Shown here in pieces: positions 52,677-53,606 of a stretch of DNA of 64,000 nucleotides. The DNA is from Rhodohalobacter sp. SW132 (GTDB lineage Bacteria > Bacteroidota > Rhodothermia > Balneolales > Balneolaceae): NCBI RefSeq assembly GCF_003390325.1, contig NZ_QUOK01000008.1, positions 124,001-188,000 on the forward strand, in the 5' to 3' direction. The translations under genes were made by a program, and so were the position numbers. Position 1 is the first letter of the stretch; each line of letters opens with the position of its first letter. The notes beneath the pieces were generated by a model. The model was given only the letters and a program-made list of their open reading frames with translations, searched no databases and was not told the origin of the DNA.

Positions 52677-52714
52677 AAAAAAGCTCCGATCTCTATTTAG
52701 AAATCGGAGCTTTT
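52677..52714 (-). terminator. Intrinsic terminator of the tRNA-Arg unit
   Basis: Perfect stem AAAGCTCCGAT / ATCGGAGCTTT followed on the minus strand by seven T. It begins 6 bases after the tRNA 3' end, so it ends the minus-strand tRNA transcript. Confidence 0.9.
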
Positions 52715-52719
52715 GTCTG

Positions 52720-52793
52720 TACACCCGACAGGATTTGAACCTGTAACCGCCTGATTCGTAGTCAGGTACTCTATCCAGTTGAGCTACGGGTGC
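52720..52793 (-). tRNA. tRNA-Arg (ACG)
   Basis: A full cloverleaf reads on the minus strand: acceptor GCACCCG/CGGGTGT, D arm GCTC...GAGT, anticodon arm CCTGA-CTACGAA-TCAGG with anticodon ACG, T arm ACAGG-TTCAAAT-CCTGT, discriminator A. CCA is not encoded. The ACG anticodon is normally deaminated to ICG to read CGU, CGC and CGA. Confidence 0.95.
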
Positions 52794-52798
52794 ATTTA

Positions 52799-52870
52799 AG
52801 TGGCAAGGTTCAGGGTGCAAGTGGTAGGTTAAACTTGTCTCCTGTATCTTGAACCCTGAGTCTTACCACT
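52799..52870. repeat. Word-like inverted repeat (TTCAGGGT/ACCCTGA family)
   Basis: The arms AGTGGCAAGGTTCAGGGT... and the reverse complement of ...ACCCTGAGTCTTACCACT match at 19 of 23 positions, around a central spacer. It fills the gap between tRNA-Arg(ACG) and the first tRNA remnant. Confidence 0.7.
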
Positions 52871-52920
52871 ACTTTCAATAAAATAACAACAAATTATATA
52901 TACGTAACGATTCTGTCGAT

Positions 52921-52991
52921 GGCATCCCTTTGGGAGAACCTGTAACCGTCCCGACGCTTCGGGATACTCTATCCAGTTGAGCTACGGGTGC
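52921..52991 (-). pseudogene. tRNA-Arg remnant with anticodon arm replaced by a palindrome
   Basis: Compared with the intact tRNA-Arg(ACG), 27 bases covering acceptor, D arm and linker (52965-52991) are identical, and 13 bases of variable loop and T arm (52936-52948) are identical. The 17-base anticodon arm is exactly replaced by the 16-base palindrome TCCCGACGCTTCGGGA (52949-52964). The T-loop and 3' acceptor side are replaced by a second palindrome, TCCCTTTGGGA (52925-52935). It cannot decode codons. It could be a decayed gene or a tRNA-like RNA. Confidence 0.85.
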
Positions 52992-52992
52992 G

Positions 52993-53100
52993 TTTCAGTA
53001 AACAGTATACAGTGTGCCAGTGTACAGTTTTTACAGGGTGGCATGTACTATAATCTAAACACACTGTTTACTGTAGACTGAATACTGACACACTGAAAAA
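52993..53100. repeat. Word-like inverted repeat (CAGTxxACAGT family)
   Basis: CAGTAAACAGT at 52996-53006 is matched by its exact complement ACTGTTTACTG at 53063-53073, and related CAGTGTACAGT/CACACTG words fill both arms. It separates the first remnant from tRNA-Arg(TCG). Confidence 0.7.
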
Positions 53101-53101
53101 G

Positions 53102-53175
53102 TACGCCCGGAAGGATTTGAACCCTCAGCCTTCTGATCCGAAGTCAGACGCTCTATCCAGTTGAGCTACGGGCGC
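53102..53175 (-). tRNA. tRNA-Arg (TCG)
   Basis: Full cloverleaf on the minus strand: acceptor GCGCCCG/CGGGCGT, D arm GCTC...GAGC, anticodon arm TCTGA-CTTCGGA-TCAGA with anticodon TCG, T arm GAGGG-TTCAAAT-CCTTC, discriminator A. Reads CGA. Encoded beside tRNA-Arg(ACG), from which it seems to have diverged by duplication. Confidence 0.93.
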
Positions 53176-53220
53176 AGTTATTATCAGTAAATCAAAAATC
53201 ATTTCTCACGCAGCAGATCA

Positions 53221-53276
53221 AGCCTTCTGATTCGAAGTCATCCCGAAGGATTTCGGGACAGTTGAGCTACGGGCGC
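53221..53276 (-). pseudogene. tRNA-Arg(TCG) remnant with D-arm segment replaced by a palindrome
   Basis: Eighteen bases of the 5' acceptor and D stem (53259-53276) and the anticodon arm and variable region (53221-53240) match the intact tRNA-Arg(TCG) with one change. The 11 bases between them are replaced by the palindrome TCCCGAAGGATTTCGGGA (53241-53258). The T arm and 3' acceptor side are missing. Not decodable. Confidence 0.82.
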
Positions 53277-53284
53277 ATGTAAAA

Positions 53285-53343
53285 GAGACATGAGACATGA
53301 GACAATCTCATCAGATCTTGTGTCTCACAATCTAACGTCTCAT
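53285..53343. repeat. Word-like inverted repeat (GAGACAT/ATGTCTC family)
   Basis: GAGACATGAGACATGAGAC on one side faces TGTCTCAC...GTCTCAT on the other. It follows the second tRNA remnant and has the same arm-spacer-arm design as the two other gap repeats. Confidence 0.65.
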
Positions 53344-53606
53344 TGTTCAGTATGTCAAGATTTTAAAATAACGATTTTCTGCTCATGCATTTCATATCTC
53401 AGCAAGAACAGATAAGGTAAGGAATTATGCAGAAATAGTACAAGCCTGATGAATAACTTTATAGCAGGAGCGATATACCCAAACGGGATACCTGGCTTGG
53501 AAACAGGAAAATGTGAGTCAGTGACCACTGAGTACATCACTCTTCTCCATAAGTTTCTATCCAATAAAACACTTATCATACCACTGATTCATACGATAAA
53601 CACCCC
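53344..53606. other. Spacer upstream of the Wzi-like gene
   Basis: No supported gene. A minus-strand 74-codon frame (53355-53579) has a C-terminal stretch vaguely like RelE/ParE toxins (LPYLFLLRYEMHEQKIVIL), but no start, catalytic context or antitoxin; at most a decayed fragment. Confidence 0.4.

Follow-up and report, generated by a model that had tools for sequence, protein, structure and literature searches.

The window analysed here, a stretch of 64,000 nucleotides from Rhodohalobacter sp. SW132, contains a tRNA-Arg array on the minus strand whose features are collected in the table below. ARAGORN and Rfam, together with alignment to the intact genes, bear out the description given in the first-pass annotation, namely two intact tRNA-Arg genes (anticodons ACG and TCG) alternating with two remnants. 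In the direction of transcription, the order is promoter-like site, remnant 2, the TCG gene, remnant 1, the ACG gene, and terminator; each of the two tRNA-Arg genes has one hairpin-bearing copy, located on its 5' side. The spacers (window positions 52800-52870, 53005-53095, and 53285-53345) are low-complexity inverted repeats made of CAGT-, GAGACAT-, and GGTTCAGGGT-like words, and the array spacers of relatives are low-complexity inverted repeats too, with other words.

Table. Coordinates of the tRNA-Arg array features in the window
Feature	Position	Strand	Basis or remark
Intrinsic terminator, array end	52679..52714	-	Clear
Intact tRNA-Arg (anticodon ACG)	52719..52793	-	ARAGORN, Rfam
Short palindrome TCCCTTTGGGA, former T loop of remnant 1	52925..52935	.	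4-bp stem; not in G001
Remnant 1, tRNA-Arg(ACG) copy: positions 1-27, then the hairpin, then the 13 nt past the anticodon arm	52936..52991	-	Alignment; border and palindrome common to G001
Palindrome TCCCGACGCTTCGGGA, 16 nt, in place of the 17-nt anticodon arm of remnant 1	52949..52964	.	
Intact tRNA-Arg (anticodon TCG)	53101..53175	-	ARAGORN, Rfam
Remnant 2, tRNA-Arg(TCG) copy: positions 1-18, then the hairpin and the anticodon arm, with the 3' portion missing	53221..53276	-	
Palindrome TCCCGAAGGATTTCGGGA, 18 nt, in place of 11 nt of the remnant 2 D arm	53241..53258	.	
Promoter-like site upstream of the array	53329..53358	-	TTGACA-18-TAGATT, 10/12; weak, as 1.7 such sites are expected by chance

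In remnant 1, the 17-nt arm CCTGACTACGAATCAGG (tRNA positions 28-44) is exactly exchanged for TCCCGACGCTTCGGGA, and alignment to the ACG gene confirms the earlier claim that the 27 nt on one side and the 13 nt past the anticodon arm on the other are unchanged. Remnant 2 is identical to the TCG gene over positions 1-18; the next 11 nt, GATAGAGCGTC (19-29), are swapped for TCCCGAAGGATTTCGGGA, after which the anticodon arm follows, so that here too the alignment agrees with the replacement that had been described for the D arm. A second palindrome had been proposed at the T loop of remnant 1. The sequence TCCCTTTGGGA is indeed present there, but it carries little weight, because its stem has only 4 bp and the homologous remnant in the related genome G001 lacks it. 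Both remnants keep the tRNA 5' half and D arm and not the 3' end, and neither matches RF00005 or any other Rfam model. The pattern TCCCGA-N3..10-TCGGGA is found in 28 dispersed copies in the 5.08-Mb genome versus none for the reversed pattern, and the chance expectation for such a palindrome (≤1 mismatch) is 0.14 per window.

The same remnants are found in relatives. Remnant 2 recurs with the same borders in two genomes of the same genus (G002 and G003) and in one of another genus (G099), and remnant 1 recurs with the same border in G001; G014 and G021 have TCG copies with another D-loop swap. The claim that the borders are too clean for random decay therefore stands, since each remnant recurs in relatives at the same borders, remnant 2 also in another genus, and the alignment of the locus shows that the equivalent sites are not plain decayed spacer. 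An assembly artefact is ruled out by the sharing of borders among related genomes and by the occurrence of hairpin copies in single-contig genomes such as G127. As judged from these sequence comparisons, the remnants are neither random decay nor artefact, because each of them recurs with its borders in related genomes. The 44-50-nt tRNA fragments that relatives have elsewhere, and the integrase that adjoins the array in G003, would fit ordinary tRNA pseudogenes produced by random decay or fragments left at att sites by integrated elements. However, an att-site fragment would keep the 3' end from the crossover onward, whereas what is left in the remnants is the 5' half and D arm, and the borders are arm-exact and shared across genera. 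As a source of the arm exchange, decay and att fragments are already refuted, and we give them next to no probability.

Conservation of this kind could also mean that the hairpin copies are maintained as tRNA-like RNAs, such as co-transcribed leaders, decoys, or antitoxins tied to a tRNA-targeting activity. Across the four genomes of two genera that have remnant 2, the 7-bp stem is invariant while the 4-nt loops are all different, and the first 18 nt are nearly invariant (one base is lost in G002) while the spacers are not alignable. The location of both window remnants between the promoter-like site and the terminator would fit such a role, as would the tRNA-Asn copies of family f24, which persist across genera despite diverged spacers. 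Nevertheless, most copies are without the 3' half and unable to form a cloverleaf, the position and sequence of the hairpin vary, there is no Rfam match, and the 5' half can be preserved by gene conversion with the intact copy as donor. We therefore regard maintained RNAs as an improbable explanation.

Hairpin-swapped tRNA copies are a general pattern. When related genomes were searched with a D-arm seed plus TCCCGA-N-TCGGGA, approximately 75 matches were obtained in 49 of the 296 genomes of the phylum, versus 3 for the reversed pattern, and a composition-matched scrambled palindrome sought with the same tRNA seed gave 10 matches in the 296 genomes, none of them in a recognisable tRNA. Most of the TCCCGA matches are tRNA copies in which the anticodon arm is swapped and which lie in tandem with an intact tRNA of the same kind. 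We compared 98 non-redundant palindromic copies with the neighbouring intact tRNA: 39 swap exactly the 17-nt anticodon arm and 19 more do so within 1 nt (58/98), while others involve half the anticodon arm (16), a piece of the T arm (16), or a piece of the D arm (7). These copies lie on either side of the intact gene (46 upstream and 52 downstream), and the tRNA types with hairpin copies include Val, Asn, Ala, Arg, Met, Gly, and others. Among the matches listed from a scan of 84,980 species, the hosts are mainly Bacteroidota (Flavobacterium, Pedobacter, Gillisia, Draconibacterium, Neolewinella, Algoriphagus, and Niastella), together with two Patescibacteria (Nomurabacteria, L119; Uhrbacteria, L196).

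The sequence of the hairpin is not fixed. TCCCGA is the commonest stem, with TTCCGA, CCCCGA, TCCGCC, TCCGGC, CCTGCC, TCCCGG, TCACGC, and others also found, and tRNA copies can carry different palindromes at one and the same spot, even when they belong to a single genome. CCCCGA, TCCGGC, CCTGCC, TCCCGG, and TCACGC are among the stems at the loci of the palindrome-blind GIY-YIG search described below. What stays constant is the presence of a hairpin, of diverse sequence, that replaces an arm or lies inside one. A replacement process aimed at tRNA arms, as had been suggested from the window alone, gains from the recurrence of arm-exact exchange across the phylum, but a self-moving TCCCGA palindrome is not the whole story, because hairpin sequences vary. 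We note that in the tRNA-Asn arrays L103, L105, L106, and L112 it is the 3' half of the anticodon arm that is replaced, an arrangement kept across genera with diverged spacers. Calls of tRNA-Lys or tRNA-SeC on hairpin copies (L097, L182) were rejected, as ARAGORN had taken the palindrome for the anticodon arm and there is no new tRNA. The pattern is widespread and apparently undescribed: a literature search on tRNA palindromes and on UPF0213 with tRNA found nothing on point, and no earlier description of hairpin-swapped tRNA copies with GIY-YIG genes, in the open-access literature, while a description in a subscription journal is possible.

The same palindrome is also seen outside tRNA copies. 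Two TCCCGA palindromes are located in the 23S rRNA gene L076 (G000:C22:2230-3470) at positions 404 and 842, one occupying a hairpin tip that is not the same in relatives and the other in a segment that two relatives from the same order lack. An arm of the TPP riboswitch (Rfam RF00059) at L072 (G000:C9:192569-192587) is formed by TCCCGATAAAAAATCGGGA, and TCCCGATGTATCGGGA lies near the start of RNase P class A RNA (RF00010) in L111 (G226) and in L137 (an Ignavibacteria bacterium). Six loci of the window's own genome (L054, L055, L056, L068, L070, and L073) carry a larger dispersed repeat, GTCATGCCGG...GGGAGATCACG-palindrome-ATGCGAGATGACGCC, with the same palindrome at its centre, and further copies lie inside CCCCTC/GAGGGG repeats (L057, L063, L064, and L069). 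The presence of the TCCCGA stem in 23S rRNA, the TPP riboswitch, and RNase P RNA makes a more general hairpin exchange possible. It could be that a dispersed, REP-like nano-palindrome without a gene of its own replaces or inserts at stem-loops genome-wide, for example by template switching at hairpins; disposable tRNA copies would then be where the palindrome survives, and GIY-YIG genes, described below, would merely supply the copies. The spread of one stem over a 23S hairpin tip, a 23S insertion, the riboswitch, the Ignavibacteria RNase P RNA, and unrelated intergenic repeats is consistent with this, as are the specificity of TCCCGA relative to the scrambled palindrome and the way in which replacements follow structural arms. 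Against it, other palindromes occupy the same place in the tRNA copies, no sequence tag borders the hairpins, and there is strong enrichment in tRNA copies beside GIY-YIG ORFs. We suggest that such a palindrome is a possible but rather doubtful source of the exchange.

Small GIY-YIG ORFs (UPF0213/Slx1-like) are strongly linked to the arrays with hairpin copies. Such an ORF lies within 1.5 kb at 20 of 63 palindromic-tRNA loci. The figure is 2 of 83 for palindrome loci outside tRNA copies (Fisher p=7e-7) and 0 of 29 for tRNA-Arg loci that lack a palindrome (p=2e-4), each p value being for the comparison with the palindromic-tRNA loci. The converse search took Pfam PF01541 matches in 31 genomes as its starting point and ignored palindromes, with UvrC-type loci as the control: 27 of the 59 small GIY-YIG loci contain an intact tRNA and 24 contain a tRNA fragment, compared to 0 of 13 UvrC-type loci for both. 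Where the ORF is near an intact tRNA, it is always on the same strand and never on the opposite one. Most hairpin-copy loci are without an ORF within reach; no GIY-YIG ORF or fragment was found in the window or within approximately 1.5 kb per side at the tRNA-Arg loci of 29 relatives. Elsewhere in the same genome, the genes for tRNA-Gly, Asp, Asn, and fMet also have hairpin copies, in every case next to a GIY-YIG ORF. In the copies that follow a tRNA-fMet around a GIY-YIG ORF at L312 (G000:C8:82845-84500), the anticodon arm is partly replaced by TCCGCC-N4-GGCGGA and the T arm contains another hairpin.

The typical unit runs [hairpin-tRNA copy] - intact tRNA - terminator - GIY-YIG ORF - hairpin-tRNA copy. 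Two layouts are seen, one with intact tRNA, terminator, ORF, and a hairpin copy that also has this terminator (L164, L277, and L285) and the other with a 5'-half hairpin copy, ORF, and intact tRNA (L119, L153, L275, L280, L282, and L284). The stop codon of the ORF is the TAG of the tRNA TAGCTC box at L097, L164, and L171. Units are repeated head to tail (L164, L132, L258, L367, and L368). Within the genus Flavobacterium, some genomes have more units than others. Frameshifted or truncated ORFs adjoin hairpin copies at L132, L202, L253, and L298, and these decayed ORFs give a path to ORF-less arrays such as that of the window. A clean empty site for the ORF insertion was looked for and none was found; the comparison of G124 with the best candidate, G476, was dropped because G476 has an assembly gap, a string of Ns, at that place. 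Tyrosine-recombinase-like integrase genes adjoin the tRNA-Arg array at L034 (G003:C62) and a tRNA-Asp 3' fragment at L238, indicating that larger elements also enter these tRNA sites.

The ORFs encode proteins of approximately 80-95 amino acids that consist of the catalytic domain only, with no separate DNA-binding region; PF01541 was matched by all five of the ORFs tested. In an alignment of 22 ORFs from related loci, Y5, Y16, G18, R26, H30, T38, A58, E62, and K66 are invariant, a set that includes the catalytic residues of the GIY-YIG family (Y, Y, R, and E). The nearest solved sequences are UPF0213 proteins, followed by Slx1, and an AlphaFold2 model (pLDDT 89) resembles UPF0213 BH0048 and Slx1, with I-TevI a weaker match.

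We favour, with moderate confidence, the view that the window remnants are ORF-less members of this widespread class of tRNA arrays tied to a minimal GIY-YIG endonuclease. The window's place in the class rests on its anatomy and on the further arrays found elsewhere in that genome, and we infer that an ORF was present there in the past. In this scheme, the endonuclease gene would lodge at a tRNA gene and the enzyme would break DNA in or near that gene, with repair by recombination among the neighbouring tRNA copies. Such repair could build tandem arrays of one intact tRNA and partial copies with the ORF between them. A single arm of the extra copies, the anticodon arm in most cases, has been exchanged for a self-complementary hairpin. 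After the exchange, the copy may no longer be available for the nuclease to attack or for the intact tRNA to misfold with; in the window, the ORF would have been lost or never have arrived. Cleavage of the tRNA gene, spread by homing, the origin of the hairpin, and its benefit are the parts of the scheme that we infer. The hairpin copy is certainly non-decoding. A recoded rescue tRNA was considered and rejected: anticodon stems of Flavobacteriaceae tRNA-Ala(GGC) vary with or without hairpin copies, and no recoded arm was found. Immunity through loss of the arm is left unexplained, because the intact copy has the same native arm.

Misfolding could by itself be the selective force if a partial copy pairs with the adjacent intact tRNA and the arm swap relieves this pairing. 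When folded in silico, the intact tRNA has a mean cloverleaf pairing of 0.78 alone, 0.31 with a native-arm copy upstream, and 0.44 with the palindrome, which improves 24 of 45 cases and worsens 4 (p=2e-5). However, a shuffled non-palindromic insert helps equally (p=0.79), which leaves the palindrome unexplained; we therefore consider selection against misfolding very unlikely as the full explanation and have discarded the idea that the palindrome was selected as a folding insulator. Branched and hairpin DNA are substrates of Slx1, which makes it worth considering that DNA structure directed the arm exchange. Specifically, the Slx1-like GIY-YIG nuclease might excise the arm at the base of an extruded tRNA-gene hairpin and leave or capture a palindromic hairpin, which we regard as an unlikely route; if true, arms would be traded for hairpins by a previously undescribed type of DNA exchange, with which a selfish tRNA-gene element would disarm the copies on either side of its own cassette of intact tRNA and nuclease.

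If the array class is as we propose, part of the UPF0213-like GIY-YIG family, which is large and poorly understood, would acquire a genomic context and, in tRNA genes, a likely target. The clean exchange of stem-loop for stem-loop makes the mechanism in RNA genes testable in cultured Flavobacterium, Pedobacter, and Gillisia.

Short self-complementary DNA is also placed in RNA genes or other genes by the double-hairpin elements (DHEs) of Allomyces and the Rickettsia palindromic elements. These differ in size and sequence and are insertions, not arm-for-arm exchanges, and we know of no link between them and tRNA tandems with GIY-YIG genes. REP elements are likewise dispersed palindromes, of 20-40 bp, but they have GTAG/CGTC tags (PMC3733652), whereas the hairpins described here have no such tag and the adjoining bases are plain tRNA sequence. 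Group I introns in tRNA anticodon loops share the anticodon arm as target and a GIY-YIG endonuclease (PMC3984707); in our arrays there is no intron, and the gene sits between complete and partial tRNA copies. The mORFs of fungal mitochondria resemble our arrays in that an endonuclease ORF is inserted at a gene whose end is duplicated and displaced, but they concern protein genes in mitochondria and have no exact hairpin swaps (PMC3630166).

The closest known system is SegB of the T-even phages. It is a free-standing protein in phage T4/T6 (Brok-Volchanskaya et al. 2008 as cited in PMC13096335), and in T6 it is a GIY-YIG homing endonuclease that is encoded in a tRNA array and cuts inside tRNA genes (PMC13096335). 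SegB thereby causes the tRNA genes and segB to be amplified in tandem by homologous recombination, and the tRNA 5' end shares microhomology with the segB 3' end (PMC13096335). The SegB motif given there, RAWTSGAAC, appears to resemble the complement of the T loop. SegB belongs to phage genomes, whereas our loci are chromosomal and their ORF is a bare Slx1/UPF0213-like domain; hairpin-swapped tRNA copies are a feature of the arrays here, and the passages on SegB mention none (PMC13096335). What the two have in common is a GIY-YIG gene beside tRNA genes. The bacterial arrays are built as such an amplification process would lead one to expect, with the hairpin exchange as an addition, and a tRNA-gene element of the SegB kind is the best supported reading of the arrays, which would make them a chromosomal, hairpin-marked counterpart of the phage SegB arrays.
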